Source of the DNA: a virus
Virus record (IMG/VR): IMGVR_UViG_3300008952_002688
Span: 1 to 41,356 of that record
Direction: 5' to 3' (one strand)
Length of the DNA stretch: 41,356 nucleotides
Numbering within the stretch: the first letter of the stretch is position 1; every line of letters begins with the position of its first letter. Below the pieces are notes generated by a model. It did no database searches and was not told the DNA's origin. It worked only from the letters and a program-made list of their open reading frames with translations. This document shows positions 7,048 through 41,345 of this stretch, in pieces. The translations under genes were made by a program, and so were the position numbers.

Positions 7048-9336
7048 GTGAAAGGTAAGGGCGAGAGTAAGTCTGGATACTATTCCAGTCACGGCGTTAT
7101 GGTCCCAATGGGGCCTGCTTTTGATTCTGATGGCTCTAAGTATCTAGGGAGACCCAGAAGACCGAGATATTCAGGAAGCTCAGGGTCTCCATCCATGCAT
7201 GCTGACAGTGGATTTTCATCCACTGACGGTCTTGGTAGGGTTAATAAAGGATATGATCAGGATGTTGAGATGCCCTCAATGTTTCCTGAGCAGGATGATG
7301 AGTATGTCGATGACGAGGACTTGTTGAATATTTCCCTGAGAACTAGAAAGCTTCCTGTATATTCAATTGGAGTTCATCCAAATTCTGGAAGGAGAGGACT
7401 TAAGACGCTAAGTGAAGGTTTTCTTCCAGGATTTATTGGAGATTTCTTTAAGAGCTTAGGTCTATCAGCACCCGGTATCGACGTCCTAATAGGGAAGATG
7501 ATTCTCGATAGAGAGGCGGAAAGCGGAAGAGTTGCAATTGAGAATATGTGCGACTTAGTTGGAATTAGTTCAAATGATCTTGGTGCATCCCTTATAGACC
7601 CTGCTGATGATACAATGATATTAATCATTCAGAGAATATGCTCTATGGATGATCAGCAGCGTCTAGAAGCTAGAGATCTGTTTAGAGAATTTCTTAAATC
7701 ACTCAAGGATGCAATTGTAACATTAGTTCAGGCATACGACTCACTTGTAACAATCGGTCTTGGTCAGCTTGGGCCACAAGCTGCAACTCCTGAAGAAATT
7801 GCAACTGTTCCTGCTGTAAATTTTATGTCAGGCATCGTAGGCTTCTTCACCAGAGCACTTCCTGTCGAAAGGCTTGTATTCAACTTATCTTCAAATCTGG
7901 CTAAAATGTTTGTAAACGTGATGGAGATATCAGATACATTAGAGGCTGCATCTCCCAAGTATAAAGAAGCAATTTCTAGACTTGATAGCGGATTTGGACC
8001 TGCATTTTCTGCAATTAGATCTAGTCCAGCACTCTCTCTTTCGAGACTTGGCACTCTCTATGCAGCCCTAAGTGGTGAGAAAGATCTCTGTCTTGCCCAA
8101 GAGCTTCCCAAGACAGTTGAAGCTGAAGACGAAATTGTTGAAGACATTCCGGCAGAACCTGAAATATCTGGCGAGGAGATAGCTGCAGCATCTACTGGTA
8201 TTGCAATGCTTCCAGATCAAGAAGATCTTGGATTTCCAGAAGCTGCAGGATGCGCATGTCCAATTTCTGAATCAAGATTTAGGCTGCTGGAGAATAGATA
8301 TAATAAATCAATGAGGAGTCTTGGAATGTCCGAGTCAATGTTAAGAGTATTTGTAAAAGAGATAGTCAAAGAAGCAAAAAGAAAGAGTGACGAGGAGACT
8401 GTTCAAGACAGGCCTAGTAGATATGGTGGACAAGGCTATCTTCCACATCCAGGAATGTCTTATGGGCAGAGATATCTTCCTGCAAACGAGGAAGACGAGG
8501 AGGAATTCTTATCTGACGAAGAAGAAAGACTTCATGCAGGAGATGGCTTTGCAGTCAATTACAGGGCAGATGACGGCTATTCATCGTGGCAAGCAAGACC
8601 CGAAAGCTTAAATGAAAGAGAAATAAGAGCTATAATTAAACAAGAGCTAAATGAGGCAGGTCTTTCTGATATTATGCCTGACAGGCTCAAGAGAGGAATT
8701 GCAACAGCAGGAATAGCCGGAACCTTGGGAATTCCCATAGTCTCTGGAGTGGGTGCATTGTCAGTAGCCGGTGATGTGCTGATGTCTTCACCAGAGAGCA
8801 CAATGCAGGAAATTTTAGATGACATGGAGCCAGAGGATAGACTCAAAAAGGCTACAAATGTCCTAAAAGGGACAGATGATCAAGTCAACAGCCTTCCCCA
8901 AGATTTGAAGAAAGCTGCTTATCAAGTTGCATCTGACTATTTAGACTCTCAGCAGGCTCAAGATGACCTCGCGATTCCTGATAGAGGACAGCAGTCGGAT
9001 ATCTCAATGGTTCAAACACAGCCAATGGAATCCTACTATGAGGGAAAAAAGATAACAAGATCTCAACTTCGAAGAATCATTAAAGAAGAAGAGAGAAAAC
9101 TTTTACAGAATGATGATTCTAAAAAAAAAGATAAAGATAAAGAGAAAGACGATCTAGACGAATTCAGTGTATCATCAGGTGTTGCAGGCGTAGTGACTCC
9201 CCTCGGAACCGGCCCAGACGGAGGAAAGGGAAGTGATGGCGGCGCCAGAGAGAGGTCTATTCATGCCAATGAGCGAGGATTCGGCGGAGGAAAAAGATCA
9301 GGGTCGTGGATGACCTATCCTGTAAAGGGATATTAA
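7048..9336 (+). CDS. Large low-complexity protein with three amphipathic LRxII-type motifs
   Basis: This 762-residue protein is not recognised. The start is GTG 7048. Residues 1-90 are Gly/Ser/Arg-rich, then acidic. A helical region with hydrophobic stretches covers about 120-350, followed by an acidic linker at about 355-390. Three related helical motifs occur: SESMLRVFVKEIVKEA (about 428-443), NEREIRAIIKQELNEA (about 522-537) and ITRSQLRRIIKEEERK (about 669-684). A Gly/Ala-rich hydrophobic segment at about 553-580 could insert in a membrane or pack as a hairpin. The C-terminus is Lys/Asp- then Gly-rich, and includes a run of nine A at 9121-9129 without loss of frame. The mix of disordered linkers and short helices suggests a virion-internal or scaffold-like protein, which is inference only. 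Confidence 0.65.
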   Translation: MKGKGESKSGYYSSHGVMVPMGPAFDSDGSKYLGRPRRPRYSGSSGSPSMHADSGFSSTDGLGRVNKGYDQDVEMPSMFPEQDDEYVDDEDLLNISLRTRKLPVYSIGVHPNSGRRGLKTLSEGFLPGFIGDFFKSLGLSAPGIDVLIGKMILDREAESGRVAIENMCDLVGISSNDLGASLIDPADDTMILIIQRICSMDDQQRLEARDLFREFLKSLKDAIVTLVQAYDSLVTIGLGQLGPQAATPEEIATVPAVNFMSGIVGFFTRALPVERLVFNLSSNLAKMFVNVMEISDTLEAASPKYKEAISRLDSGFGPAFSAIRSSPALSLSRLGTLYAALSGEKDLCLAQELPKTVEAEDEIVEDIPAEPEISGEEIAAASTGIAMLPDQEDLGFPEAAGCACPISESRFRLLENRYNKSMRSLGMSESMLRVFVKEIVKEAKRKSDEETVQDRPSRYGGQGYLPHPGMSYGQRYLPANEEDEEEFLSDEEERLHAGDGFAVNYRADDGYSSWQARPESLNEREIRAIIKQELNEAGLSDIMPDRLKRGIATAGIAGTLGIPIVSGVGALSVAGDVLMSSPESTMQEILDDMEPEDRLKKATNVLKGTDDQVNSLPQDLKKAAYQVASDYLDSQQAQDDLAIPDRGQQSDISMVQTQPMESYYEGKKITRSQLRRIIKEEERKLLQNDDSKKKDKDKEKDDLDEFSVSSGVAGVVTPLGTGPDGGKGSDGGARERSIHANERGFGGGKRSGSWMTYPVKGY

Positions 9337-9373
9337 TTTTTTGAACAACCTCTTATCTTGCTGTATCTTTAAA

Positions 9374-9402
9374 TTGTGATACTATTTTATCACAAAGTGA
9401 TA
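9374..9402 (+). promoter_or_regulatory. Perfect 8-bp hairpin and extra half-site in SSB leader
   Basis: TTGTGATA at 9374-9381 pairs perfectly with TATCACAA at 9388-9395 around the loop CTATTT. A third copy of the half-site, GTGATA, follows at 9397-9402 and could compete for the same partner. No T-run follows, so this is not an intrinsic terminator. It lies in the 103-base gap before the gp32-like gene and is followed by an A/T-rich stretch and AGGAGG at 9429-9434. T4 gp32 represses its own translation through a leader structure plus an unstructured A/U-rich site, and the layout here is similar. A DNA operator is the main alternative. Confidence 0.45.
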
Positions 9403-9439
9403 TTGCCAATTTACCATTTTGAAAATTTAGGAGGTTATC

Positions 9440-10222
9440 ATGGCATTTGACAGAGAAGCATTACAGCGAAGGCTTGATGCATTAAGCGGAAATCGAAGAA
9501 AGAAATCAGCCACGTGGAGACCCACGGAGGGAGAGGATTCTACTATTAGACTTCTCTCTTTTCCAGACAACGACGGGCAGCCATTCAAGGAGCTTTATTT
9601 CTACTATAATATTGGAAATAATCCTGGCCTATTGGCTCCCTATCAGTTTGGTGATCCAGACCCGATTCAGGAATTGATTACCAAGCTTAGAGGCGATGAT
9701 GCTCGTGAGTCTTATGAGCTAGCAAAGAAGCTCTATCCTAAGATGCGGGTGTATGCACCAATCATCGTTAGAGGAGAAGAGGACAAAGGTGTTCAGATCT
9801 GGGGATTTGGAAAGATGGTGTATCAATCACTTCTTAATATTATGCTAGATGAAGACTATGGCGACATTACAGACCCAACTGAGGGAAGAGACGTTAAGGT
9901 TACCTGTACCCGAGAAGCTGGAAGAAAGTGGGCAACAACTACTGTCCGACCAAGGGGAAAGGAGACAGACCTCTCTACAAATAGCAAGCAAGCATCTACG
10001 TGGATGTCTGAAATTCCAGACCCTACTGGGATGTATGAGTGCAAGTCATATGACGAACTTACCAAGATTATTAATGATTGGCTGAATTCGGATATGGAAG
10101 ACAGCTCCATGGGAACTTCCATGGGAGGCTCTAAGAAGGCCACCCCAGATAATACAGGATCTTCTTCTGACAGCTCTGGCTATAAGTCTCTTGATGATGC
10201 TTTTGCAGACTTGATGGAATGA
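9440..10222 (+). CDS. gp32-like single-stranded DNA-binding protein
   Basis: This 260-residue protein matches the T4 gp32 layout. A basic N-terminus (MAFDREALQRRLDALSGNRR) would serve cooperativity, a core contains RLLSFPDNDGQPFKELYFYY and FGDPDPIQELITKLRG, and a Ser/Gly linker leads to an acidic tail SLDDAFADLME that would bind partner proteins. gp32 coats single-stranded DNA and recruits helicase, recombinase and polymerase. The zinc-binding cysteines of T4 gp32 are absent: the region that should hold them reads NNPGLLAPYQFGDPDP, and only two scattered Cys occur later. The start is ATG 9440 behind a strong AGGAGG. The gene follows a hairpin leader and ends just before a strong terminator, consistent with its own abundant transcript. 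It directly precedes the UvsX-like gene. Confidence 0.85.
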   Translation: MAFDREALQRRLDALSGNRRKKSATWRPTEGEDSTIRLLSFPDNDGQPFKELYFYYNIGNNPGLLAPYQFGDPDPIQELITKLRGDDARESYELAKKLYPKMRVYAPIIVRGEEDKGVQIWGFGKMVYQSLLNIMLDEDYGDITDPTEGRDVKVTCTREAGRKWATTTVRPRGKETDLSTNSKQASTWMSEIPDPTGMYECKSYDELTKIINDWLNSDMEDSSMGTSMGGSKKATPDNTGSSSDSSGYKSLDDAFADLME

Positions 10223-10231
10223 TGTAATACT

Positions 10232-10265
10232 AAGAGAGGGAGGAATTGACCTCCCTCTCTTTTTT
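10232..10265 (+). terminator. Strong intrinsic terminator after the SSB gene
   Basis: A perfect 12-bp stem (AAGAGAGGGAGG at 10232-10243 with CCTCCCTCTCTT at 10250-10261) closes a six-base loop and runs into TTTT. It sits nine bases after the SSB stop and ends 19 bases before the UvsX-like start. The SSB transcript would therefore end here, with some read-through into the recombinase gene. Confidence 0.9.
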
Positions 10266-10284
10266 AAGTACCAGGAGTGTCGGT

Positions 10285-11427
10285 TTGGCAAAAACAAATG
10301 ATTTTACTAGTGATTTAATTAAATCTCTTAATAAAGAGCACGGAAGTCGTGTTGCGTATAACTTGAGTCAAGATGAATCTCCAACGCATGTTAATCGGTG
10401 GATTAGTACAGGATCAAAGCTTCTTGACTATATTTGCTCAAATAGAAGAGATGGCGGTCTTCCAGAGGGAAGAATTATAGAGATTTTTGGTCCTCCGTCT
10501 ATTGGAAAGTCCCATATTGCAACACAGATTGCAAGAACAACACAGAAAATGGGAGGAATTGTAGTCTACATAGACACAGAGAATGCTACATCTGTTGAGA
10601 ATCTAAAAATGCTCGGCGTTGATGTCGCTAGTCGATTTGTGTATGTCGACACTCACTGCACAGAAGAAGTTCTCTCAATTGCAGAAGCAACGATAATGAA
10701 AGCAAAGGCAATGGATAAAGATCTTCCTGTTACAATTGTGTGGGATTCAGTTGCTGCATCTTCTCCAAAAGCAGAGCTTCTTGGAGACTATGATAAAGAA
10801 TCAATAGGGCTTCAGGCACGTGCAATCTCGAAAGGAATGCGAAAGATTACTGGAGTAATCGCTAATCAGAATGTATTATTTGTAATACTCAATCAGATTA
10901 GAACTAAGATCGGTGTAATGTACGGCGACCCAGATACAACACCTGGCGGGAAGGCGATTCCGTTTCATGCGTCAACAAGAATTAAGCTAGGTGCCGGTCA
11001 ACAGATAAAGGAGGGAGACGACGTAATTGGAATTCACGTTTCACCAAAAACAATCAAGAATAAGGTTGCTCCTCCATTTAGAAAGATTGATTTTGAGATT
11101 CACTTCGGTGTGGGCATTAAAGAGCACGAACAGGTTTTCGATCTATTGAGAAAGAATGGCGCTGAGGTAATTGGTAAAAATCATGTAGGTGTTTCTGGGA
11201 CTGGATCCTGGAAGACATTTTCTGTGATAGACTGTGATACTGGTGAGAGCATCATTGAGAAGAAATTTCATAAAGCAAACTTTAATGACATAATGACAAA
11301 TCCAGAATATTCTAGCTATATTGACGACTTGCTTGAAAAAGCAATGGTGAAAAAATTTAATCAAGATCCTGATATTGATATTGAGTCTTATGAAGAAGTA
11401 AGGGCAGTTGCACTTGAAATTGAGTGA
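10285..11427 (+). CDS. uvsX: UvsX/RecA-like recombinase
   Basis: This 380-residue ATPase has a Walker A motif GPPSIGKS (about 69-76), the RecA-type segment VVYIDTENA, a Walker B-like strand VTIVWDSVAA, and the conserved region FVILNQIRTKIGVMYGDPD followed by TTPGGKAIPFHAS. RecA/UvsX proteins form filaments on single-stranded DNA and drive strand exchange, which in T4-like phages also primes replication. The length is near that of T4 UvsX. I place the start at TTG 10285, which has AGGAG seven bases upstream; an earlier TTG at 10246 lies inside the terminator stem and is rejected. The gene overlaps the downstream frame region of the 5' nuclease by only a few bases if that gene starts at GTG 11424. 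The neighbours are SSB, nuclease and helicase, the T4-type recombination-replication set. Confidence 0.88.
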   Translation: MAKTNDFTSDLIKSLNKEHGSRVAYNLSQDESPTHVNRWISTGSKLLDYICSNRRDGGLPEGRIIEIFGPPSIGKSHIATQIARTTQKMGGIVVYIDTENATSVENLKMLGVDVASRFVYVDTHCTEEVLSIAEATIMKAKAMDKDLPVTIVWDSVAASSPKAELLGDYDKESIGLQARAISKGMRKITGVIANQNVLFVILNQIRTKIGVMYGDPDTTPGGKAIPFHASTRIKLGAGQQIKEGDDVIGIHVSPKTIKNKVAPPFRKIDFEIHFGVGIKEHEQVFDLLRKNGAEVIGKNHVGVSGTGSWKTFSVIDCDTGESIIEKKFHKANFNDIMTNPEYSSYIDDLLEKAMVKKFNQDPDIDIESYEEVRAVALEIE

Positions 11428-11435
11428 GGTGTAGT

Positions 11436-12413
11436 TTGAGCAAGGTAACACCTGTTGTCCTGGTTGATGCATTTAATCTTTTTATGAGGCACTATGTCGC
11501 TCATCCTGCGATGAGTGATCACGGCCAGCATGTTGGTGGGATTGTTGGATTCTTAAACGCTTTAAAGAAGATATGCTTTGAAATGACACCCACAGACGTC
11601 GTCATAGTGTGGGAAGGCGGCGGATCAAAGAAGAGGAGGGACATTCTTCCCACGTATAAGATGAGCAGAAGACCTCAAAAACTAAACAGATTTTATGAAA
11701 ATGATGATATTCCTAACACAATTGAGAATAGAAATGATCAAATTTCTTTTCTAATATCATCTCTAAAAAGACTCCCGGTAATTCAGGTCTATGTTGATAG
11801 CTGTGAAGCAGACGATGTCATTGGCTATCTTTCTAGATATAAATTTAGAGATGATAAAAAAGTTATCATCTCTTCTGATAGAGACTACTACCAGCTTCTA
11901 GACAATAGGACTGTGATTTTCTCTCCTACATGGAAGAAGTTTGTCAATAAAAAAGAAGTTATAGAAAAATTTGGAATAAGTCCGACTAACTTCTGTCTTG
12001 CAAAAGCTATATGCGGTGACCCGTCTGATAACATAAAGGGAGTAAAGGGTGCCGGATTTAGGACAATATCAAAAAGATTTCCCTCGATGGCTGCAGAGGA
12101 CGACTGTACTATATTAGACATAGTCTCAGAAGCAAAAGAAAGGGCTCAAGAGAAGAAATCTCCAAAGATTTTTAAAGAAATAGCATGCAGTGAGAACCTA
12201 ATTAGAATGAACTGGAAATTAACATATCTAGATACTTCAAACATCTCTCCCATACAAATTAAAAAGATTGAAAGTTTAATTGATACTTTTAGTCCCACAC
12301 CAAATAAAATATCACTAATCAGGATGATGATAAAAAATGGAATTCAGAATCTTGATATCGATCACCTTTTTCTATCAATGAGGAACATTGGAAAACGTAG
12401 TAATAATGAATGA
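11436..12413 (+). CDS. rnh: 5'-3' exonuclease / RNase H (flap nuclease family)
   Basis: This protein of about 325 residues has the metal-binding acidic clusters of the T4 RNase H/T5 flap nuclease family. They are VVLVDAFNLFMRHY at the N-terminus, CEADDVIGYL in the middle, SSDRDYYQLL, and CGDPSDNIKGVKGAG, the helix-hairpin-helix entry. Such enzymes remove RNA primers and 5' flaps during lagging-strand synthesis. The N-terminal arch region (YKMSRRPQKLNRFYEND) is basic as expected for DNA threading. The start is taken at TTG 11436 with GAGG five bases before it; GTG 11424, overlapping the UvsX stop, is an in-frame alternative. The gene overlaps the helicase gene downstream by 8-26 bases depending on that start, suggesting translational coupling. 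Confidence 0.85.
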   Translation: MSKVTPVVLVDAFNLFMRHYVAHPAMSDHGQHVGGIVGFLNALKKICFEMTPTDVVIVWEGGGSKKRRDILPTYKMSRRPQKLNRFYENDDIPNTIENRNDQISFLISSLKRLPVIQVYVDSCEADDVIGYLSRYKFRDDKKVIISSDRDYYQLLDNRTVIFSPTWKKFVNKKEVIEKFGISPTNFCLAKAICGDPSDNIKGVKGAGFRTISKRFPSMAAEDDCTILDIVSEAKERAQEKKSPKIFKEIACSENLIRMNWKLTYLDTSNISPIQIKKIESLIDTFSPTPNKISLIRMMIKNGIQNLDIDHLFLSMRNIGKRSNNE

Positions 12414-28145: not shown

Positions 28146-29099
28146 ATGCGTGACTTAGATTATTTTTTTAATCGTCAAAATAAATTTTCTGATCTTTTTT
28201 TCAAACCTGGTGATATGACAAATGAAGAGAGGGAAGAGATGACAAAATCTTTTGCCCTTGCTCTTCACGCTGAGGTTTCTGAGCTAATAAGCGCAGTCAA
28301 TTTTAAAGATCACAGACAGCTTAAAAACAATGCTGACCCATCAAAGATCCTTTATGAATCAGTTGATGTGTTTAGATATCTACTTGCAATTTTAAATCTA
28401 TGGAATATAGATCCGCGCGATCTATCAGATGCATTTGAAGACAAGGACATGTTTCTTCATATGAGATATCATATTGAATCACAAGTATGGGACGGACAGC
28501 CGGTCCTTGTATTTGATATTGATGATGTAATTGCTCACTTTAGATCTAATTTTATTGACTGGCTAGAGTCTGAAAAAGGTGTCATTGTTGATAAAGCTTC
28601 TACTGAATATTATACAACTACAGAGGTTAAAGACTCGGGTCTGAATCCAGAAGATGTATTTGATGAGTTCTTATCAGAAAGAAAGCTTAGAAATCTTACT
28701 TTAGACAGGGGAGTCGTAGATGTTATAAATTACTTTTACGACACAGGATGCTGGATTCAGCTTCTCACAGCAAGGCCAGGTGACGTTCTACAGTGCAAGT
28801 ATGATACTTACAGATGGTTAAGTAGATCAGGGTTGAAGTTTCACAGGGTTGATTTTAGTGCAGAGAAGTATAGATGGCTTACAAAGTCTGAATATTTTGA
28901 CTCTGGACAGATTGTTTGTGCTATTGATGATTCAGCGAAGCATTCAGCTGAATATGCAAAGCACGGCATATCAACTCTATCACCAGTAACATCATATAAT
29001 AGAGAGCTAGAAGATGTTGACGGCGTGATGATGTATTACGGTTCAAGTCAGCTAAGAGTTCTCATCGATACATTTTTGATGAAGGGAAAATTTATATGA
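28146..29099 (+). CDS. Fusion of an all-alpha NTP-PPase domain with a HAD phosphatase
   Basis: This 317-residue two-domain protein is unusual. Residues 1-112 form a MazG/dUTPase-like helical domain: ALHAEVSELISAVNF (Glu43, Glu46) and YESVDVFRYLLAILNL (Glu71, Asp74). Residues 118-317 form a HAD-type phosphatase: LVFDIDDVIAHF with the DxD nucleophile pair (Asp124, Asp126), WIQLLTARPGD as motif II, and IVCAIDDSAKH as motif IV. Together it could turn an NTP into a monophosphate and then a nucleoside. AGGAGG lies just before ATG 28146 and the stop precedes a terminator-like hairpin. The fused order, and not a simple gene pair, suggests channelling of one nucleotide. The substrate is unknown. Confidence 0.75.
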   Translation: MRDLDYFFNRQNKFSDLFFKPGDMTNEEREEMTKSFALALHAEVSELISAVNFKDHRQLKNNADPSKILYESVDVFRYLLAILNLWNIDPRDLSDAFEDKDMFLHMRYHIESQVWDGQPVLVFDIDDVIAHFRSNFIDWLESEKGVIVDKASTEYYTTTEVKDSGLNPEDVFDEFLSERKLRNLTLDRGVVDVINYFYDTGCWIQLLTARPGDVLQCKYDTYRWLSRSGLKFHRVDFSAEKYRWLTKSEYFDSGQIVCAIDDSAKHSAEYAKHGISTLSPVTSYNRELEDVDGVMMYYGSSQLRVLIDTFLMKGKFI

Positions 29100-29158: not shown

Positions 29159-30148
29159 ATGCCACAAAATAGAGACCTTGACCCAATAGAGCTTCCAATG
29201 GATTTAAAGTTTGGGCAGGAACCTACTACAGAATTTTTTAATAATTTATCAGCTCTAAAGGTTGAGCTTGTTGATCACCCTACTAGAGATCAAGCTCTTA
29301 ATGTTGCATGGCAATATGTCAAGGCTACGTGGGCTGACTGTCCAGATGAAACAAATCCTGTGAATGTATCTCCTCAGGAGATGTCATCAAATCTTGAAGA
29401 TGTTCTATGCTTTAGGGCACTTCCAACACCAATGGAGTGCCTTGGGTTCACATTTAAATTGAGCGGTCTTTCATTTCAAGAAGTGACTCATATTATTCGT
29501 CATAGGGCTGGTTCTTTTGCAGCACAGTGTACAGGTGACAGAGATCTAAGGGGAGACCCAGCTGTTGTACCAGAGGCAATTCAAAACTCTCCAGAATTCT
29601 TTGAGAGATACAAGAGAATTGTTAGAGAATCAAAACAGCTATATTCTGATATGACAGATTCGAAAGCTGTTTCAATGATGGATGCAAGGATGATTCTTCC
29701 AAAGTGTATGACATCTTTCTATCTAATGAGACTAAACCTGAAAGACCTTTTGGGATTTATTAAGCAGAGACAAGATATTCAAATTCAACCAGCTGCTGAT
29801 AATTTACTTGCAGCAATGATGGCAAAAGAAGTCATTAAAGTCCTTCCTGAGGCATCTGCAAGAATAGATTTCAGTGCGCCTGATATGCATTACATCAAGA
29901 CGTTTAGAATAAAGCAGGGCGATAAGTGGATTAGTAGAGGAACAAATCTATATTGGCCTGAACCGAAGAACGATAAGTTTGAGTATCATCCAAGTGATAC
30001 AATCTACCAGTCTCGTAGAGAAAAGATTAATGGAATAAACAGACCTAGCGGTCCGACTAAATTTGAGAAGATATGGAATGACATTATGGATGAAATTTCC
30101 ACTATGAAGATTTCCTATAGAAACTATATGAATGGAGAAAATATATGA
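29159..30148 (+). CDS. thyX: Divergent ThyX-like flavin-dependent thymidylate synthase
   Basis: This 329-residue protein has the ThyX core. A strand CLGFTFKLSGLSFQE leads to IIRHRAGSFAAQCTGD, where RHR-x-x-S (114-119) is kept but the rest of the canonical motif (N-E-x-S-x-R) is not. Later DARMILPKCMTSFYLMRLN and LKDLLGFIKQRQDIQIQ match the second ThyX signature. The length is above the usual 220-250 residues because of extra N- and C-terminal sequence. ThyX methylates dUMP to dTMP with FAD and methylenetetrahydrofolate. The altered motif could mean another pyrimidine or reaction. AAGGAG lies seven bases before ATG 29159. It overlaps the deoxyribosyltransferase-like gene by four bases (ATGA). 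Confidence 0.75.
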   Translation: MPQNRDLDPIELPMDLKFGQEPTTEFFNNLSALKVELVDHPTRDQALNVAWQYVKATWADCPDETNPVNVSPQEMSSNLEDVLCFRALPTPMECLGFTFKLSGLSFQEVTHIIRHRAGSFAAQCTGDRDLRGDPAVVPEAIQNSPEFFERYKRIVRESKQLYSDMTDSKAVSMMDARMILPKCMTSFYLMRLNLKDLLGFIKQRQDIQIQPAADNLLAAMMAKEVIKVLPEASARIDFSAPDMHYIKTFRIKQGDKWISRGTNLYWPEPKNDKFEYHPSDTIYQSRREKINGINRPSGPTKFEKIWNDIMDEISTMKISYRNYMNGENI

Positions 30149-30585
30149 AAGCGTATATTGCAAGCTCGTGGTTTACACCAGATGCTTTTGAAGAAGTTGA
30201 AACGATCAAGAAGCTGCTTACAAGGCATGGATTTGATTACTTTTCACCAAAAGATTTTTTTATATGTCCCCCAAGTGCTGATCTTAAGACTCAAAAGGAT
30301 ACTTTTGACGGCAATGTTGAGCATATTCTTGGAAATGATTTTGTAATTTGCAATACTAGAGACAAGGATATGGGAAGTATTTTTGAAGCTGGTGTTGCTT
30401 TTCAGTCTGATACCCCTATAATTTACTTTTGTGCTGGGCTTCCAGAGGGAGCTACATTTAACTTAATGCTAGCACAGTCGGGAATTAAGGTCTGTACTTC
30501 TTTTGAAGACTTAGATGACTACCTTTCTCGGTGCTCTGATCTAGAGATGCTTCTTGTCGAGCCATACTATGGAAGTATTGAATAA
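30145..30585 (+). CDS. Nucleoside 2-deoxyribosyltransferase-like protein
   Basis: This 146-residue protein has the compact fold of nucleoside deoxyribosyltransferases. It opens with KAYIASSWFTPDAF, then a helix with a Leu-rich face, GNDFVICNTRDKDMGSIFEAG (Asp65, Glu81 as the nucleophile) and a final strand TPIIYFCAGLP. These enzymes exchange or remove the base of a deoxynucleoside; a related branch (DNPH1/RCL) hydrolyses 5-hydroxymethyl-dUMP. Both fit the ThyX and MBD4-like context, but the sequence alone does not decide. ATG 30145 overlaps the ThyX stop (ATGA), so translation is coupled. Confidence 0.72.
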   Translation: MKAYIASSWFTPDAFEEVETIKKLLTRHGFDYFSPKDFFICPPSADLKTQKDTFDGNVEHILGNDFVICNTRDKDMGSIFEAGVAFQSDTPIIYFCAGLPEGATFNLMLAQSGIKVCTSFEDLDDYLSRCSDLEMLLVEPYYGSIE

Positions 30586-31893: not shown

Positions 31894-31952
31894 CTCTATT
31901 TCATGTAAATTTCTTCAATTTGGTTTAAAATTATCATAGGAGGTAGTTGATA

Positions 31953-34900
31953 GTGTTTAATAAGTTTTCTGTGCCAAAGAGATTCGTAGGTCTTCATGCA
32001 CATGATGGTAGTTCTGTATACGATGGTCTTGGATATCCTAATGAACATATTGATTTTGTTCTTGAAAACGGGATGGATGCTTTTGCATTAACAAATCACG
32101 GACATATGAATTCTGCAGCTCATGCACACAACTATGCTAAGAAGTTAAAGAATAAAGGCGTAGGGTATAGACACATCTACGGATGTGAGTGCTATTTTGT
32201 AGATGATCTAGACGAATGGAGAAGTGACTATAATGAGTATCGAGAAAAAGTTAGACAGGAAAAGGAGCTTCAAAAGAAATCAAAGAGTGAGATATCTGAG
32301 GGTGATGAGAGTGAAGGCCTAGTCATTGAGAATGAGGATGAATCAAAGGCAGATCGTGGAACGTACCCATCGTGGAAGAAGCGGTATCATCTTGTAGTTC
32401 TTGCTAAGAACTATAAAGGGCTGCAGAATCTCTTTAGATTGGTCAAGAGATCATACAAGGAAGGGTTCTATAGGTTTCCTCGTATTGATTACAAGATGCT
32501 TAAAGAGCACTCTGAGGGGCTTATAGTCTCAACAGCTTGTGTTGGGGGTCGGCCGTCTGGCCATATATTCCAGCACTTTGAAGGAAAGAGCTTTAATGAA
32601 CTAACTCCTGATCTCGTAGATGACCCAGTTGTTCTCAATCAAATCATGAGAAAGCTTGAAAATATGACGGATAGATTTGTTGATGCTGTAGGTGAGGAAA
32701 ATTTCTTTCTTGAAATTCAATTCAATGACCTTGTTGCTCAAAATCTTGCCAACAGGTGCATCATTAATCTTTCTGAAAAGACAGGGATTCCGCTTCTTGC
32801 AACAGCTGATTCCCATTACTGCAACCCAGATATGTGGGAAGCAAGAGAGATGTATAGGCTTCTCGGAAGAATGGGGTCTCGTGGAGGTGAAATGCCCAAA
32901 CTTCCCAAAAAGGAGGACTTAAAGTGTGAGCTCTATCCTAAAAATGCACAGCAGATGTGGGATGAATTTGGAAAGAGTTACGATAAATATGACTTCTACA
33001 AGGGTAGCGAAGAAGCTGTTCGCGGAGCAATTGAGAAATCTTATGGAATTGCATGGGATATGTGTGAAGAAGTCTGGTTTGACGGATCAGCAAAGCTTCC
33101 AAACTTTGGAACGCCTGAGAAGTCTGCGTTTGCCCAGTTAGTTGAACAGGTAAAAGAGGGAATGGTTAAAGATGGTCTTCATGAAAAACCTGAGTACGTC
33201 GAACGAGTAAGGGAGGAAATGTCTGTCATCAAGAAGCTAGGGTTTGAGAATTACTTTTTAACACTAACTAAGGTATTTGAAAAGTCACAACATAGAACTC
33301 TACTTGGACCAGGTCGAGGATCCGGTGGGGGAAGTCTGGTTAATTACGTACTTGGGATTACGCATATCGACCCAATTCAGTACGGACTTCTATTTGAGAG
33401 ATTTCTAGGTATTCACAAAGCATCATGGCCTGATATTGATTCTGATGTAGGTGATAGAGATGTCCTTATTGACGTTTCTCGTGAGCTTTTTGGTGAAGAC
33501 TCTGTCATACCTGTTTCTAATTTCAATACTTTGAAGTTAAAATCCCTTATCAAGGATGTCTCTAAGTTCTATGGAATTCCATTTGATAAGATAAACGCTC
33601 TAACCGGGCCTCTTGAGAGAGAGGTTATGCCCAGAGCCATGGGTGATCATGAAGAAAGGTCTACGTATGTCCTAACACACGAAGACTGTATGAAATATAG
33701 TGATCCCTATAAAGAGTTCATGGATGAATATCCAAAGATTGCAGAGCATATTAAGTCCTTATTTATGGAGCCAAGGTCGATCGGTCGACATGCAGGAGGA
33801 GTTCTAGTATGTCCAGATCTTGAGAGCAGCATGCCAGTCATTAAGGTCAGGGGTGAACTTCAAACACCCTGGTCTGAGGGAATGAACTGGAGGCATCTTG
33901 AAGAGAATGGATTTCTCAAGTTTGACTTTCTAGGACTTGCAACGCTTAAGATGGTAGAAGATTCCATCAGGCTTATCTTAAGAAATCAGGGAGTAGAAAA
34001 TCCTACATTTGATGATATCAATAAATTCTTTGATGAAAATATAAACAGCAGATTTCATAAGATGGATGATCAAAAAGTCTGGGAATATGTCTATCATGGT
34101 GGAAGGTTTGTTCAGGTTTTTCAATTCACAAATACAGGTGCTAGAAACTTCTGTGTCGCAGCAAAGCCCAGGTCAATTGAGGACCTTGCTACAATCACTG
34201 CAATCTATCGTCCAGGACCCCTTGCTGCAAACGTTCACAGGAAGTATGTAAGAGCTGGTAAAGATATTGAAAATATCACATATGATCACCCTGTCCTTGA
34301 AGAGCTCTTAAGTGAAAGTCGAGGATTTGTCGTCTTCCAGGAGCAGTTTATGCTTATTGCTCAAAATCTTTGCGGATTCGACAAGGGAGCATCAGATAAG
34401 ATGAGAAAGACTCTTGTTAAGAAGTCACTCGACATGAATGAAAAGAAGGCAAAAGAAAGGGCTGACCTAAGAAAGAAATTCATTACAGGCGCTGTTGATC
34501 TATCTGGAATGGAAGAGGATAAAGCGACTAAGCTTTATGAAACAATCGAGGCATTCTCTGCTTACGGATTCAATAAATCACATGCTGTTGCATACGCCGT
34601 TGATTCGTACTATTCCGCATGGCTTCACACATACTATGAGAGGGAGTGGCTTGCCACATGTCTTCAGACGTGGAATGGATCTCCAAAGTTTGCAAAGATC
34701 ATAGCTGAGATTAAGTCTCTAGGATATAAGATTCTTCAACCAGACATCAATGCCTCTTCAGACGTATGGGTATATAGCGATGAAAGAGAGGGATTTGTTC
34801 CTCCACTTACTGCAATTAAGGGTGTTGGTGACTCTGCTGTTGCTGAGATTATGCAAAATAGACCCTATGATTCTCTTGATGATATTCTGTTTACAGCGGA

Positions 34901-35537
34901 TGGAAAGTGGAAGTCTTCTAAACTGAACAAGACAGCATTTGATTCTCTTTGCAAGGTTGAGGCTTTTGGCAGTGTATCAGAAATGTCTAATGGAGAGATT
35001 CAAAATCACAGACAGCTTCATGATATTATTGTTGGAAACTATGATCAGCTAAAGAAAGGCAGATACGGGATGACAAAAACAGCCCATAAGAAACTGCTTA
35101 AGACACAAGGCTCTGTTGAAGAGTTTGTTCCTAAGTTGATCATTGATAACTACGGATCTTCAGACTGGTCTAGGACACTTAAGATAGGGTTTAGTGTTGA
35201 TCTAATGTCAGGTGCAGATGAATCACTCGTATTTCCTCCCGAAATTATGGATAAAATTAAGAAATCAGAGCTTAAGCCCATCACTGCACTATCAGGAAAG
35301 GTAAAGGATGTTGTCTGGTTCTGCATTCAAGAAATCAATGAGAAGAAGACTAAGAATGGAAAGGTATTCTATCGAATGAGAGTTTGTGATAATAATTCTG
35401 AAAGCTGCTGGCTTCGAGTATGGACAAAATTTAAGGAAGTTCCAGATCCGTATACGATATGGCTTGCAGAGGTTGCATCAACTGAATCCTGGGGGTGTAG
35501 CACCTCTTCTTATAAAATGAGAAAAATTAATGTGTGA
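31953..35537 (+). CDS. dnaE: DnaE-type (family C) DNA polymerase III alpha
   Basis: This 1194-residue protein is a complete Pol III alpha subunit. The PHP domain (about 1-280) keeps likely metal ligands (GLHAHDGSSVYDG, ALTNHGHM, YGCECYF, TADSHYC), so it may proofread. The polymerase core has GPGRGSGGGSLVNYVLGITH, the catalytic pair in WPDIDSDVGDRD (Asp494, Asp496) and the third Asp in KFDFLGLATLK (Asp658). The fingers, helix-hairpin-helix (IKGVGDSAVAEI) and a C-terminal OB region (about 1110-1180, ALSGKVKDVVWFCIQE) follow. It would be the main replicase, with a short family A polymerase at 4520-5731. The start is GTG 31953, nine bases after AGGAGG; TTG 31947 is an alternative. The gap before it is 59 bases, without a terminator. 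Confidence 0.92.
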   Translation: MFNKFSVPKRFVGLHAHDGSSVYDGLGYPNEHIDFVLENGMDAFALTNHGHMNSAAHAHNYAKKLKNKGVGYRHIYGCECYFVDDLDEWRSDYNEYREKVRQEKELQKKSKSEISEGDESEGLVIENEDESKADRGTYPSWKKRYHLVVLAKNYKGLQNLFRLVKRSYKEGFYRFPRIDYKMLKEHSEGLIVSTACVGGRPSGHIFQHFEGKSFNELTPDLVDDPVVLNQIMRKLENMTDRFVDAVGEENFFLEIQFNDLVAQNLANRCIINLSEKTGIPLLATADSHYCNPDMWEAREMYRLLGRMGSRGGEMPKLPKKEDLKCELYPKNAQQMWDEFGKSYDKYDFYKGSEEAVRGAIEKSYGIAWDMCEEVWFDGSAKLPNFGTPEKSAFAQLVEQVKEGMVKDGLHEKPEYVERVREEMSVIKKLGFENYFLTLTKVFEKSQHRTLLGPGRGSGGGSLVNYVLGITHIDPIQYGLLFERFLGIHKASWPDIDSDVGDRDVLIDVSRELFGEDSVIPVSNFNTLKLKSLIKDVSKFYGIPFDKINALTGPLEREVMPRAMGDHEERSTYVLTHEDCMKYSDPYKEFMDEYPKIAEHIKSLFMEPRSIGRHAGGVLVCPDLESSMPVIKVRGELQTPWSEGMNWRHLEENGFLKFDFLGLATLKMVEDSIRLILRNQGVENPTFDDINKFFDENINSRFHKMDDQKVWEYVYHGGRFVQVFQFTNTGARNFCVAAKPRSIEDLATITAIYRPGPLAANVHRKYVRAGKDIENITYDHPVLEELLSESRGFVVFQEQFMLIAQNLCGFDKGASDKMRKTLVKKSLDMNEKKAKERADLRKKFITGAVDLSGMEEDKATKLYETIEAFSAYGFNKSHAVAYAVDSYYSAWLHTYYEREWLATCLQTWNGSPKFAKIIAEIKSLGYKILQPDINASSDVWVYSDEREGFVPPLTAIKGVGDSAVAEIMQNRPYDSLDDILFTADGKWKSSKLNKTAFDSLCKVEAFGSVSEMSNGEIQNHRQLHDIIVGNYDQLKKGRYGMTKTAHKKLLKTQGSVEEFVPKLIIDNYGSSDWSRTLKIGFSVDLMSGADESLVFPPEIMDKIKKSELKPITALSGKVKDVVWFCIQEINEKKTKNGKVFYRMRVCDNNSESCWLRVWTKFKEVPDPYTIWLAEVASTESWGCSTSSYKMRKINV

Positions 35538-35546
35538 GGTTAGATA

Positions 35547-36455
35547 GTGCTGACATTTCCAATCAATATGATTTCAATAGAGGGTCCTGATCTTTCTGGA
35601 AAGACAACCTTAATCAATGACATTCATAAGAAGACGAACTATCGGTGGCATATAATGGATAGGTCGAAGCTTTCTAGAATGGTGTTTGCTAAGATGTATG
35701 ATAGAGATGTCGAACAGGCGACAAGAGAGTTCTACGAAGAAGTTAGCAATCTAAATAACAGATGCGTCTTTTTAATGCCCACATTCGAAGTTCTGGAGAA
35801 GAGATACAAAACTCGTGGTGATGAAATTCATACAATTGATACTCTAAGAGAGTCATACGATTTATTTTTTAAAGAATTTACTAGACTCCCATCTTTATCA
35901 AACGTTTATGGAATTATGAACGGTTCGTCTGGAAGATTAAGCAATATGGTTATTGACTATCATAATTGCATTGAAAAGTATCTAACACTAAAAGAAGTCC
36001 ATGGTCAAGTGCAAAATTTTGTAAAGCACTTTCCAAACAGAGAGTGCAATCAGCTAACATTCACGCTTCATGATAGCGGTGAATTTAAAGAGTCAGACAT
36101 AGCCTCTATGAGTGAAAAATCAGAAAAAGAATACTATCACAGAATTTACGACTCTCTGATGAATAAAATTGATGATGAACAGTCTGGAAAAAATCCGTAC
36201 TCAAGAAAAGAAGGGCTAGATTCAAGAAGATATGTGTTTACAGAAGATACATGCATTTCAATGATCCACATCTTAAATAGAGACGGCATCCTAGATATAA
36301 GATTTGTCTGTAGGTCTACAGATATTAACAATAAGTTTGAACACGATTTAAAATTTCTATACTTTATAGCTTCAGAGTGCTGGAGCTTATTGGGTGAAGG
36401 GTGTAATTTTTGTAGAATGCATTTCACCTTAAACTCTGCACACATTCTTGAGTAA
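35547..36455 (+). CDS. P-loop nucleotide kinase fused to a thymidylate-synthase-fold domain
   Basis: This 302-residue protein joins two nucleotide domains. Residues 1-130 are a thymidylate/dNMP kinase-like P-loop domain with MISIEGPDLSGKTTLI (GPDLSGKTT) and later LEKRYKTRGDE. Residues about 150-302 resemble a short thymidylate synthase: TCISMIHILNRDG holds a candidate nucleophile Cys236, which sits 20 residues before FVCRSTD (Arg256, Ser257, Asp259), exactly as in ThyA. The position of the dUMP-selecting Asn is Asp267 (KFEHDL), the change known from dCMP hydroxymethylase, and the end SAHILE matches the AHIY loop. I infer dCMP hydroxymethylase plus kinase activity, but the TS domain is short and may be inactive. 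GTG 35547 has GAGG seven bases before it. Homology is read by eye. Confidence 0.6.
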   Translation: MLTFPINMISIEGPDLSGKTTLINDIHKKTNYRWHIMDRSKLSRMVFAKMYDRDVEQATREFYEEVSNLNNRCVFLMPTFEVLEKRYKTRGDEIHTIDTLRESYDLFFKEFTRLPSLSNVYGIMNGSSGRLSNMVIDYHNCIEKYLTLKEVHGQVQNFVKHFPNRECNQLTFTLHDSGEFKESDIASMSEKSEKEYYHRIYDSLMNKIDDEQSGKNPYSRKEGLDSRRYVFTEDTCISMIHILNRDGILDIRFVCRSTDINNKFEHDLKFLYFIASECWSLLGEGCNFCRMHFTLNSAHILE

Positions 36456-36474: not shown

Positions 36475-37479
36475 ATGGAAAAGAGAGCTTTAGTTACAGG
36501 CGGTTGTGGATTTATCGGTTCAAACCTAACAAAGGAACTTGTCAAACAAGGGTGGATGGTAGACATCGTAGATGACATGTCAAATGGTCATTTAGAACTC
36601 TTAGAGGGATTAAAATTTAGAGCTATTCCTAGCTCAGAATTTCTTACTGAGTTTAACAAACAAGCTGGAAGGGAACGGGATACAGTTGTTGTCATTCAAG
36701 ATGATTTTGCATCACCTGGAATATCACACCAGATATCTAAAAAGATGTACGATATTGTGTTTCACCAAGCAGCGATACCCAGAGTCTTATTTTCTGTTGA
36801 AAATCCTTCTATGACAACAAATACAAATATTGGTTCAACAGTTAGGTTATTTGAAGCATGCATCGGAAATGTTAAAAGAATTGTCTGGGCTTCATCTTCT
36901 TCAGTGTACGGAGGTGCTAAATTGATGCCCACATCTGAAGATCACCCAAAGGATCCCAAGTCACCATACGCCTGGCAGAAATCTTCAATAGAAGAGCTTT
37001 CTAGGGTTTTTTGTAATCTCTATGATATTGATATTGTATGCCTAAGATACTTTAATGTTTTTGGTCCAGGACAGTATGGAGATTCTCCTTACTCAACTGC
37101 AGTTTCTGCATGGTGCAATGCCGTTCTCAACGGCCTTCCGCTTAGGAGTGATGGTGATGGAACACAGTCAAGAGATCTTTGCTACATTGACAATGTCGTA
37201 CAGGCAAATGTCTTAGTTGCAAATCGGGATGAAAATTTTGAAGGACAGTTCTATAATATCGCGTGCGGTGATAGGACGACAAATAATCAAATTCTTAATT
37301 TTTTTAGAGATAAGTTTCCTGATATTAAAGTAGCTGATGCTCCATGGAGGCCTGGTGATGTTAGGCACACACAGGCTGATATTGCAAGAGCTAGAGAAGA
37401 TTTTGGTTATGAACCCACAGTGAGAATTTGGGAAGGACTGGAGAGAACAGTTAAATGGTGGGGGCTTAAAGATGAGTAA
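36475..37479 (+). CDS. NAD-dependent sugar epimerase/dehydratase (GalE/WbpP-like SDR)
   Basis: This 334-residue extended short-chain dehydrogenase has the N-terminal dinucleotide motif VTGGCGFIGS (about 7-16), a DDM acid for NAD ribose, the catalytic ASSSSVYGG with Ser, and SPYAWQK with the Tyr-x-x-x-Lys pair. Later RYFNVFGPGQYGDSPYS and SDGDGTQSRDLCYIDNV are typical of UDP-sugar epimerases. It would convert a nucleotide sugar, for example at C4 of UDP-glucose or its N-acetyl form. The start is ATG 36475 with GAGG before it. It overlaps the cupin gene by eight bases. With methyltransferase and sulfotransferase genes downstream it may serve glycan or DNA decoration, which is inference. Confidence 0.8.
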   Translation: MEKRALVTGGCGFIGSNLTKELVKQGWMVDIVDDMSNGHLELLEGLKFRAIPSSEFLTEFNKQAGRERDTVVVIQDDFASPGISHQISKKMYDIVFHQAAIPRVLFSVENPSMTTNTNIGSTVRLFEACIGNVKRIVWASSSSVYGGAKLMPTSEDHPKDPKSPYAWQKSSIEELSRVFCNLYDIDIVCLRYFNVFGPGQYGDSPYSTAVSAWCNAVLNGLPLRSDGDGTQSRDLCYIDNVVQANVLVANRDENFEGQFYNIACGDRTTNNQILNFFRDKFPDIKVADAPWRPGDVRHTQADIARAREDFGYEPTVRIWEGLERTVKWWGLKDE

Positions 37480-37903
37480 GGCAATATGGAGAAGTCAATC
37501 TACAAACCATATAAAACCATGGGGATCAGAGGTTTCATGGACAGCACCAAATGCTCATGGAAAGATTTTAACTATCAATTCTGGAAAAAGACTAAGCTTT
37601 AAAATGAACAAAGTTAAGACAGAAACTCTCTTTATTGTTCAAGGAAGGGTTTCAGTTGACTGTGCAGATCAGGGATTTTTTAAAGATCCGCCCAACTATC
37701 CCATGAGAAGGGTAACTCTATCTCAGGGTGAGTGTCTAAATATTCAATCTGAGTGTCCATATAGAATAACTGCTGAGATAGATTCAATAATATTTGAAAT
37801 AGGTGATACTAAAAATGACTGTGTTGATAGAATCATAGATGACTATGGACGAGAAGATAAGTCACTTGCATGCTTTGCGGAGATTATAGTTGAGAATTCC
37901 TGA
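37472..37903 (+). CDS. Cupin-fold protein, mannose-6-phosphate isomerase II-like
   Basis: This 143-residue protein has the cupin order: KPWGSEVSW, ILTINSGKRLSFKMNKVK, then TLFIVQGRVSVDC and TLSQGECLNIQ. Near the end comes DRIIDDYGRED, as in sugar-phosphate cupins. The usual His metal ligands are not all visible, so it may bind a sugar nucleotide rather than isomerise it. It overlaps the epimerase gene by eight bases and the thymidine kinase gene by 14, so the three are translated together. The substrate is unknown. Confidence 0.65.
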   Translation: MSKAIWRSQSTNHIKPWGSEVSWTAPNAHGKILTINSGKRLSFKMNKVKTETLFIVQGRVSVDCADQGFFKDPPNYPMRRVTLSQGECLNIQSECPYRITAEIDSIIFEIGDTKNDCVDRIIDDYGREDKSLACFAEIIVENS

Positions 37904-38447
37904 ATTTATTATTTTTACTGGACCGATGTTTGGTTCAAAGACTACAAGGCTCATGGCAACCCTAGATAGATTTAGATATCAAAATAGAAATATTTTCTGC
38001 TTTAAGCCCGCAATGGATGACAGATATTCTTCAGGCGAGATCTGTACACACTCGGGCGGAAAGATTCAAGCCGTTTGTGTAAAAGCTGGTGAAGATATAT
38101 TAAAATATTTACAGGATAAAGAAAATATTCATGTTATTGCAGTCGACGAGGCTTTTATGATAGATGGCTCTGCAGAAGCACTTCTTTCTCTTTTTAGAGA
38201 GGGAAAGACGATTGTAGTATCCTCTCTTCAACTTTCTGCTAGCGGAAATGTATTTGAAGAAATTAGAGATATGATGCCATGGGCAACAAAAATTGAGGTT
38301 TGTCCAGCTGTGTGTCCAATCTCTGGACAAGACGCTTACTATACACATAGAAAGCTTTCAGGCCTTGATGAGATTACTGTTGGCGGATCTGAGCTTTACG
38401 AGCCCAGGTCGTGGTTTCATCACAGTTTTATGAATCAGTCAAGATAG
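37890..38447 (+). CDS. tdk: Thymidine kinase (TK1 family)
   Basis: This 185-residue protein has the TK1 order: P-loop GPMFGSKTTRLM (about 11-22), CFKPAMDDRYSSG, THSGGKIQAVC, the Walker B-type VIAVDEAFMID with Glu87, and a C-terminal ISGQDAYYTHRK, then TVGGSELYEPRSWFH. It phosphorylates thymidine (or deoxyuridine) for salvage. The paired zinc cysteines are partly changed (CPAVCPIS), so zinc binding may be incomplete. The TTG start has GGAG seven bases upstream and overlaps the cupin gene. Its place beside an NTP-PPase/HAD and kinase-TS set suggests nucleoside recycling. Confidence 0.85.
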   Translation: MRIPEFIIFTGPMFGSKTTRLMATLDRFRYQNRNIFCFKPAMDDRYSSGEICTHSGGKIQAVCVKAGEDILKYLQDKENIHVIAVDEAFMIDGSAEALLSLFREGKTIVVSSLQLSASGNVFEEIRDMMPWATKIEVCPAVCPISGQDAYYTHRKLSGLDEITVGGSELYEPRSWFHHSFMNQSR

Positions 38448-40227: not shown

Positions 40228-40929
40228 GTGTCAATATATCAGAAAGAAAATAAGAGAGTCTTATTTGTTCACATTCCAAAAACAGGAGGGACATCTATTA
40301 GGCATCTCCTTCATTCCGAGGGGTGGGAAAAGATTGAAGACCCACAAATACCAGATCATTTAAAAAATGAGATCATCGGGGATAGAAGATCAAAGCATCA
40401 GCATAGTTCACTAAGAGATCTATGGAAGAAATCATGGGATTATGAGTTTGCAATGGTGAGAAATCCATATGAAAGATTCCTATCTCAGGTAAAGCATATT
40501 AGTGTCGCTAGGAAGAAAATGGGATACGATTCTGGATTCCCAGATATGCCGTCATCAGATGGAACTTTGAATATCTTTGACTCTGTACATAACAAACTAA
40601 TTCCAAAGAACGGCAAAGGGATTGATGATAACCACTTTAGACCCCAGTCTGAATTTATAAACAAAGATACAAGATTTTTTAAGCTCGAGAGCCAGAGAGA
40701 AGATGCCATTGACTTTCTTAAGTCTAATAATATAATTTCACAAGATGCAGTCTTTCCCCATCTTCATGAAAGCATTCATGATGCGCCTAACCTAATAGTT
40801 GCATGGCCGCTTCGAAAAATGCTGCATAGTCAATTTCTTAATTTTTATTTTGATGATTTTAAAAATCTTGGGTATTCAAAAGATGTTCCAACATATGGGC
40901 TAAACGTAGACTGGAGCAAAATCAAATGA
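40228..40929 (+). CDS. Sulfotransferase family protein
   Basis: This 233-residue protein has the two PAPS-binding signatures: LFVHIPKTGGTSIRHLL (about 12-28, 5'-phosphosulfate loop) and FAMVRNPYERFLSQ (3'-phosphate site). It fits the HNK-1/Sulfotransfer_2 branch, which sulfates carbohydrates. The C-terminus (FYFDDFKNLGYSKD) is also typical. A sugar of a virion or host surface is the likely acceptor. The start is GTG 40228 with AGGAGAG upstream. ATGA joins it to the dCMP deaminase gene. Confidence 0.8.
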   Translation: MSIYQKENKRVLFVHIPKTGGTSIRHLLHSEGWEKIEDPQIPDHLKNEIIGDRRSKHQHSSLRDLWKKSWDYEFAMVRNPYERFLSQVKHISVARKKMGYDSGFPDMPSSDGTLNIFDSVHNKLIPKNGKGIDDNHFRPQSEFINKDTRFFKLESQREDAIDFLKSNNIISQDAVFPHLHESIHDAPNLIVAWPLRKMLHSQFLNFYFDDFKNLGYSKDVPTYGLNVDWSKIK

Positions 40930-41345
40930 GACCTACATGGGACCAGATATGGATGGATTTTTCTTATTCAATTTCTAGAAGGTCAGTTGATCCAAGACAT
41001 CAGGTGGGAGCTGTCGTAGTTACTGATGATAATACTCAGGTCTTGGCAGTCGGATATAATGGAAACTATACTGGTGGTCCAAATGAGGTTGAATCTTTAA
41101 CACCGGGTGAGTCGGGAATGATTCATGCAGAGATTAATGCTCTTCTTAAGATGGACTATAACAATCCTAAAAAAAAGATCATGTATGTAACTTTAAGCCC
41201 GTGTAGAATGTGTGCCAAGGCAATGATTAATTCTGGAATTTCTAGAGTTGTCTATAGTGAAAAGTATAGAGATGACTCATCTTTAGAAATATTGAAAAAT
41301 GAGGGAATAGAAGTAGTTAAGTTTATCCCTAAGGATCATAATTAG
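40926..41345 (+). CDS. dCMP deaminase
   Basis: This 139-residue protein has the zinc-deaminase core: GYNGNYTGGPNEV near the substrate site, MIHAEINALL (His67, Glu69) and LSPCRMCAKAMI (Cys93, Cys96). It deaminates dCMP to dUMP, the ThyX substrate. The length is that of a compact phage or bacterial enzyme, with no extra domain. ATG 40926 overlaps the sulfotransferase stop (ATGA). The last 11 bases of the window after it hold no feature. Confidence 0.88.
   Translation: MRPTWDQIWMDFSYSISRRSVDPRHQVGAVVVTDDNTQVLAVGYNGNYTGGPNEVESLTPGESGMIHAEINALLKMDYNNPKKKIMYVTLSPCRMCAKAMINSGISRVVYSEKYRDDSSLEILKNEGIEVVKFIPKDHN

Follow-up and report, generated by a model that had tools for sequence, protein, structure and literature searches.

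With enzymes of the thymidylate synthase (TS) superfamily, phages produce modified DNA letters and so block the defences of their hosts. In T4, dCMP is modified by the hydroxymethylase gp42 (dCH; pdb-codes: 1b49, 6a9a), a protein of 246 residues with a full tetrahydrofolate (THF) site, and phosphorylation is performed by a separate kinase, gp1. Cys148 of gp42 attacks C6, Asp179 recognises and protonates the cytosine and Arg123 and Arg124 of the other protomer hold the phosphate, and the THF contacts include Ile81, Trp82, Val85, Ser94, Tyr96, Asp171, Phe174, Arg177, Tyr218 and Arg220 (PMC6400193). Likewise acting on dCMP, AfhB or 5-hydroxy-dCMP synthase of Mosigvirus-type phages (pdb-codes: 9iqu, 9iqc; PMC13390438) combines the TS fold with an aspartate at the cytosine position and the motifs RSxN and SAH; 5-hydroxy-dCMP synthase is described as a TS-superfamily member and a homologue of the 5-hydroxymethyl-dC synthase (PMC13390438). 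Enzymes of the AfhB type comprise 238 residues, carry no fused kinase and are encoded next to a U32 peptidase-family gene. The enzyme of Mosigvirus APCEc01 has the same length (238 residues) and includes the segment aligned from 9iqc in the PDB search, and the two are probably the same enzyme, as judged from their sequences; in this phage an annotated thymidylate kinase gene is located two genes away from the 5-hydroxy-dCMP synthase. The neighbouring U32 gene was seen in the phage contigs L132:1485-2645 and L133:1536-2944 (Mosigvirus, Kanagawavirus); in Entb_45 the 5-hydroxy-dCMP synthase gene also has an annotated chorismate mutase as neighbour. Since the hydroxylation of tRNA and rRNA pyrimidines draws on U32 proteins and prephenate, these neighbours could have a role in phage hydroxylation.

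Three further systems are related in part to the protein described here. The CMP hydroxymethylase MilA (pdb-codes: 5jnh, 5jp9) applies the TS fold to cytidylate, but is a biosynthetic enzyme of ca. 315–320 residues without a kinase. Protozoan bifunctional DHFR-TS joins a TS to another enzyme of nucleotide metabolism; there, however, the partner is DHFR and the TS is full-length, folate-dependent and dUMP-specific. YorR of SPbeta (pdb-codes: 2axp, 3kb2) and the thymidylate-kinase-like phage proteins of phrog_761 share a kinase domain with the fusion protein, but lack a TS-fold domain. The window analysed is the complete stretch of 41,356 nucleotides of the IMG/VR virus record IMGVR_UViG_3300008952_002688, and it encodes a kinase joined to a shrunken dCMP-type TS domain, a combination in one viral protein which seems to be previously undescribed.

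Domain architecture and predicted fold

The gene and its two domains are located as follows:

35547..36455, + strand: kinase/TS-fold fusion protein (ORF of 302 residues, GTG start)
35547..35978, + strand: P-loop NMP-kinase-like domain, N-terminal, residues ca. 1–144 (profile, PHROGs, conservation)
35580..35609, + strand: Walker A / P-loop EGPDLSGKTT, residues 12–21 (family alignment, 64/64)
35979..36452, + strand: compact TS-superfamily domain, C-terminal, residues ca. 145–302 (Foldseek, hmmsearch, hhalign)

The homologue L003 has an ATG start at the position matching the GTG of the window. An AlphaFold model calculated from an input of 64 sequences reached a mean pLDDT of 95.6 and a pTM of 0.91, compared with a pLDDT of 47 when three near-identical sequences served as input. 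Foldseek comparison with the PDB placed the phage dCMP hydroxylase AfhB in complex with dCMP first (9iqu, E 7.6e-7) and a flavin-dependent monooxygenase with dCMP and FAD second (9iqc, E 4.9e-6), followed by bifunctional DHFR-TS, MilA (5jnh, E 2.4e-5), TS and T4 dCH (1b5d, E 6.9e-5). No target covers both domains, which keeps the global TM-scores modest (at most 0.34 when normalised to the query), and the rmsd is large in some of the listed alignments; weight is therefore given to the agreement among many TS-superfamily matches and not to a single score. A preliminary description of the locus had postulated a TS fold in the C-terminal part, and model and fold search indeed reveal such a fold after residue 145. 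By fold and homology the C-terminal domain is a member of the TS superfamily. Fold search and profile alignment argue against a ThyX-like fold, which was considered for the C-terminal tail.

The N-terminal half matches YorR (2axp/3kb2) with an E-value of 3.3e-10 when the family profile is compared with all PDB sequences, and phrog_761 (thymidylate kinase) was matched in 14 of the 14 members tested. E12, G13, D15, G18, K19, D38, R39, R53, R86, G91 and D92 are invariant among 64 sequences. The features of a P-loop NMP kinase are present as the Walker A motif from E12 to T21, the DR motif formed by D38 and R39, and the Arg-rich lid with R86/R90, G91 and D92. These data agree with the earlier proposal of a fused dNMP kinase-like P-loop. 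The accompanying statement that no protein of this layout has been described also holds for the libraries searched: none was found by Foldseek in the PDB, in the viral structure library, where no protein spans both domains (best TM 0.38), or in public phage records. Computation thus establishes the domain architecture, fold, homology and residue conservation of the fusion protein.

A family of fusion proteins on viral contigs

We collected 105 homologous ORFs, mostly from viral contigs, among them 64 sequences below 90% identity. The homologues contain both domains and are 27–84% identical to the window protein; they thus form a diverged family, and the match is not due to chance. Scans of viral contigs returned just two close relatives (95% and 84%) as long as the window protein or only its tail served as query, and the wider family was reached by scanning viral contigs with the adjacent PolIII gene and then with the resulting alignment. 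Public phage records contributed a single weak match, confined to the kinase part. Stand-alone kinase relatives without the TS-fold domain, such as L009, L122, L123 and L125–L128, are present in other records. Most fusion contigs belong to one phage lineage and the co-occurrence counts given below are non-independent, with L124 as the one case of a different polymerase background; the label “marine” of the contigs derives from collection and gene content.

The contig L124 (region 7998-12030), assigned to an Emcibacteraceae MAG, encodes a full-length, very divergent kinase-TS fusion, which ends with SAHIYV and thus keeps the Tyr. A divergent ThyX of 379 residues and a family B DNA polymerase are located near this fusion. 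The pair of fusion and divergent ThyX is therefore also found outside the PolIII phage lineage.

Conserved dCMP-type residues in the TS-fold domain

The positions of the TS-fold domain which correspond to functional residues of T4 dCH and ThyA are:

36123..36125, + strand: Glu193 in the motif E-x-x-Y-Y (64/64), candidate for the catalytic Glu60 (T4 dCH)/Glu58 (ThyA)
36225..36230, + strand: Arg227-Arg228, counterpart of the two Arg which bind the phosphate in T4 dCH (Arg123/Arg124, other protomer; conservation, hhalign)
36252..36254, + strand: Cys236, position of the catalytic nucleophile (T4 Cys148, ThyA Cys146; 64/64; hmmsearch, hhalign)
36312..36323, + strand: Arg256-Ser257-Thr258-Asp259 (Arg-Ser 64/64; position 259 variable, D/N/E)
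36345..36347, + strand: Asp267, cytosine-specificity position (T4 Asp179; ThyA Asn177; 64/64)
36441..36443, + strand: His299 in NSAHI, equivalent of T4 His216 (64/64)

E193, R227, C236, R256, S257, D267 and H299 are invariant in the 64 sequences, while R228 is kept in 63 and A298 of the SAH motif in 53 of them. The assignment of Glu193 as candidate counterpart of Glu60 is based on the pattern E-x-x-[WY]-[YF] and the order of the elements. As pointed out in the preliminary description, Cys236 precedes Arg256-Ser257-Thr258-Asp259 by exactly 20 residues, a spacing retained in 63/64 relatives, and Asp267 occupies the position of the Asn in dUMP-specific synthases: eleven residues after the Arg (63/64), it coincides with Asn177 of ThyA and Asp179 of gp42. 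The Arg-Ser-x-Asp motif stated there stands for Arg-Ser but not for its last residue, since position 259 is Asp in 28 sequences including that of the window, Asn in 29 and Glu in seven.

When the family profile was compared with all PDB sequences by hmmsearch, T4 dCH was matched with an E-value of 0.0031 from Cys236 to about His299, and AfhB with 0.056. An hhalign comparison of the C-terminal domain with six TS-superfamily proteins gave a probability of 95.4 and a pairwise E-value of 1.7e-8; the Arg pair, the Cys, Arg-Ser, the Asp and the His, the same residues as in the alignment with gp42 (Arg123/124, Cys148, Arg168-Ser169, Asp179 and His216), each fall onto their counterparts, with a deletion of ca. 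15 residues between the Arg pair and the Cys. Pairwise E-values were 8.2e-6 for the 5-hydroxy-dCMP synthases, 1e-5 for dCH and 3.5e-4 for ThyA, whereas the domain HMM favoured T4 dCH (0.00018) over the 5-hydroxy-dCMP synthases (0.003), again with ThyA as weakest match.

The motif C-x19-RSx[DN]-x7-D occurs in 60 of 200,000 shuffles of the window protein and in two unrelated ORFs among ca. 18,500; because it recurs by chance, the motif alone is weak evidence, and the case is built on family-wide conservation together with the profile match and the fold. The two ORFs were checked and are chance matches unrelated to the fusion protein. Pfam PF00303 matched neither the window protein nor 13 relatives nor any of 36 contigs, as the model is insensitive to such a shortened domain. 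Pfam, PHROGs and single-sequence PDB searches with the window protein likewise did not detect the TS domain, which shows that it escapes library searches based on a single sequence.

Reduction of the folate site

The TS domain of the fusion protein comprises ca. 158 residues and is ca. 90 residues shorter than T4 gp42 with its 246. The segment leading from the putative catalytic Glu to the Arg pair measures 34 residues, compared to 63 in gp42. The proteins end soon after His299, in most members within a few residues, and the gp42-type tail is absent. At the position of Tyr218, nearly all members carry I, L, V or R, and position 259, equivalent to Asp171, is Asn or Glu in 36/64. As far as the alignment can be read in terms of function, the fusion TS domain retains the dCMP-binding half, and most of the folate contacts of gp42 appear to be without a conserved counterpart. 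In the 5-hydroxy-dCMP synthase of Mosigvirus phages, Asp171 is replaced by Asn and Tyr218 by Phe, and the SAH motif is present. The resemblance of the fusion family to this enzyme is partial: position 259 is Asn in 29/64 sequences, but Asp in 28 including that of the window, and the Ala of SAH is kept in 53/64.

Genomic context

The gene of the fusion protein is embedded in a cluster for nucleotide metabolism and replication:

29159..30148, + strand: ThyX, divergent long form with RHR-x7-C (Pfam Thy1, E 1.9e-18), co-occurring with the fusion
31947..35537, + strand: DNA polymerase III alpha, directly upstream of the fusion (upstream in 64/64 loci)
36475..37479, + strand: NAD-dependent nucleotide-sugar epimerase (Pfam Epimerase, E 2.1e-45; 45/64 loci)
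37890..38447, + strand: thymidine kinase (Pfam TK, E 1.1e-30; 55/64 loci)
40926..41345, + strand: dCMP deaminase (phrog_174, E 9.8e-48; 53/64 loci)

A DHH phosphoesterase is found in 40/64 loci; these synteny counts refer to 64 loci, some of them incomplete, on contigs of uncertain completeness. Among 36 fusion contigs, ThyX is present in 35 and a canonical TS in none. The TS domain of the fusion is hence not needed for dTMP formation, which fits a different job. A survey of jumbo phages found TS and ThyX to be anticorrelated (PMC7824862).

The ThyX of the window has 329 residues, a C-terminal extension and a signature RHR-x7-S that reads RHR-x7-C (RHRAGSFAAQCTGDR); at least 90% of the relatives in the alignment likewise carry the Cys. 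This long class (319–351 residues) occurs in 34/36 fusion contigs, about half of which also encode a canonical ThyX of ca. 240 residues, and the long Cys-type ThyX may act on another nucleotide. Three further genes of the window were noted. The product of 28146-29099 (+) has a dUTPase_2/MazG-like domain in its N-terminal part (Pfam 1.6e-4), resembles PHROGs named polynucleotide kinase or phosphoheptose isomerase in its C-terminal part, and is possibly a dCTPase/dUTPase fusion. A nucleoside 2-deoxyribosyltransferase-like gene at 30145-30585 (+; Pfam 2.3e-11; 28/64 loci) adjoins the long ThyX, and a sulfotransferase-like gene at 40228-40929 (+; Pfam 1.5e-8) lies within the nucleotide gene cluster, rare with 4/64 loci.

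A glycosylation pathway of the RB69/Mosigvirus type found no support. The U32 protein, neighbour of the hydroxylase in Mosigvirus, was present in 0/35 fusion contigs searched, and glycosyltransferase family 2 genes in 5/35, so that they are not general.

Functional implications

Based on these findings, we consider it reasonably probable that the fusion protein unites a C5-modifying enzyme for dCMP with a kinase and that its chemistry is not that of gp42. We propose dCMP as the substrate in view of the function established for Asp179 of T4 gp42. In this scenario, dCMP would be bound by the TS domain, its phosphate by Arg227/228, its sugar by His299 and N3/N4 of its cytosine by Asp267. Cys236 would then add to C6, and the activated C5 would be modified. 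The fused P-loop kinase might act on the modified dCMP, or more broadly on dNMPs, as a step on the way to the triphosphate, which could finally be used by the phage DNA polymerase III, the product of the adjacent gene. Catalysis, channelling and a modified base in the phage DNA are what we infer from this arrangement. Concerning the chemistry, we favour 5-hydroxylation of the AfhB/5-hydroxy-dCMP synthase type over hydroxymethylation with methylenetetrahydrofolate, because the folate site appears to be largely missing and some AfhB-like features are present. However, this preference for a hydroxylase is a tentative one, as the sequence profile ranks T4 dCH over AfhB; the missing U32 gene and the scarcity of glycosyltransferase family 2 genes also speak against our reading.

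The preliminary description had envisaged a single enzyme that makes and phosphorylates hydroxymethyl-dCMP. The invariance of the catalytic Cys and of the specificity Asp agrees with this proposal; the loss of most gp42 THF contacts and AfhB, an oxygen-adding superfamily member not considered there, as best fold match do not. A true methylene-THF-dependent, gp42-like dCMP hydroxymethylase, which together with the kinase would make hm-dCDP in one protein, thus appears rather unlikely to us. It draws on T4 dCH as best TS-superfamily sequence match in the PDB, on its lead over the 5-hydroxy-dCMP synthases with the domain HMM, and on Asp267, Cys236 and the candidate Glu193, but it has to accommodate the missing THF contacts, the shortened stretch between Glu and Arg pair, the variable position 259 and the His near the end of the chain.

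The shortened TS domain may also have lost catalysis altogether. As a non-catalytic binding or specificity module, it would present dCMP or modified dCMP to the kinase; dCMP-binding residues kept, cofactor-binding residues lost and a fully conserved kinase would be compatible with such a function, yet Cys236 and Glu193, retained in 64/64, go beyond the needs of simple binding, and we regard this option as improbable as well. An action on dUMP or another nucleotide, as a variant of thymidylate or hydroxymethyl-dUMP synthase, could be argued from superfamily membership alone and is highly improbable given that Asp replaces Asn177 in all 64 sequences, that ThyX is present in nearly all contigs, often twice, and that ThyA is the weakest match. 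A chance motif in an unrelated kinase extension, to which the missing PF00303 matches and the shuffled sequences might point, is practically dismissed by the agreement of fold search, PDB profile search and profile-profile alignment on the superfamily, in register and with 64/64 conservation.

If the fusion protein is a dCMP-modifying enzyme with its own kinase, as we prefer, altered DNA letters could be made with a single protein, and the family of about 100 members, mostly from uncultured viruses, would represent a minimal version of a DNA-letter-altering enzyme. A more far-reaching idea, held with considerable reserve, is that a folate-free mini TS-fold enzyme puts a group other than hydroxymethyl, oxygen or another one, onto C5 of dCMP and, with the fused kinase and the Cys-type ThyX paralogue, constitutes a new modified-cytosine pathway in marine phages. 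The concrete prediction is that dCMP is modified and that this requires Cys236 and Asp267. The family thereby provides a test of the smallest part of the TS fold that can support C5 chemistry, and of whether folate is needed for it.
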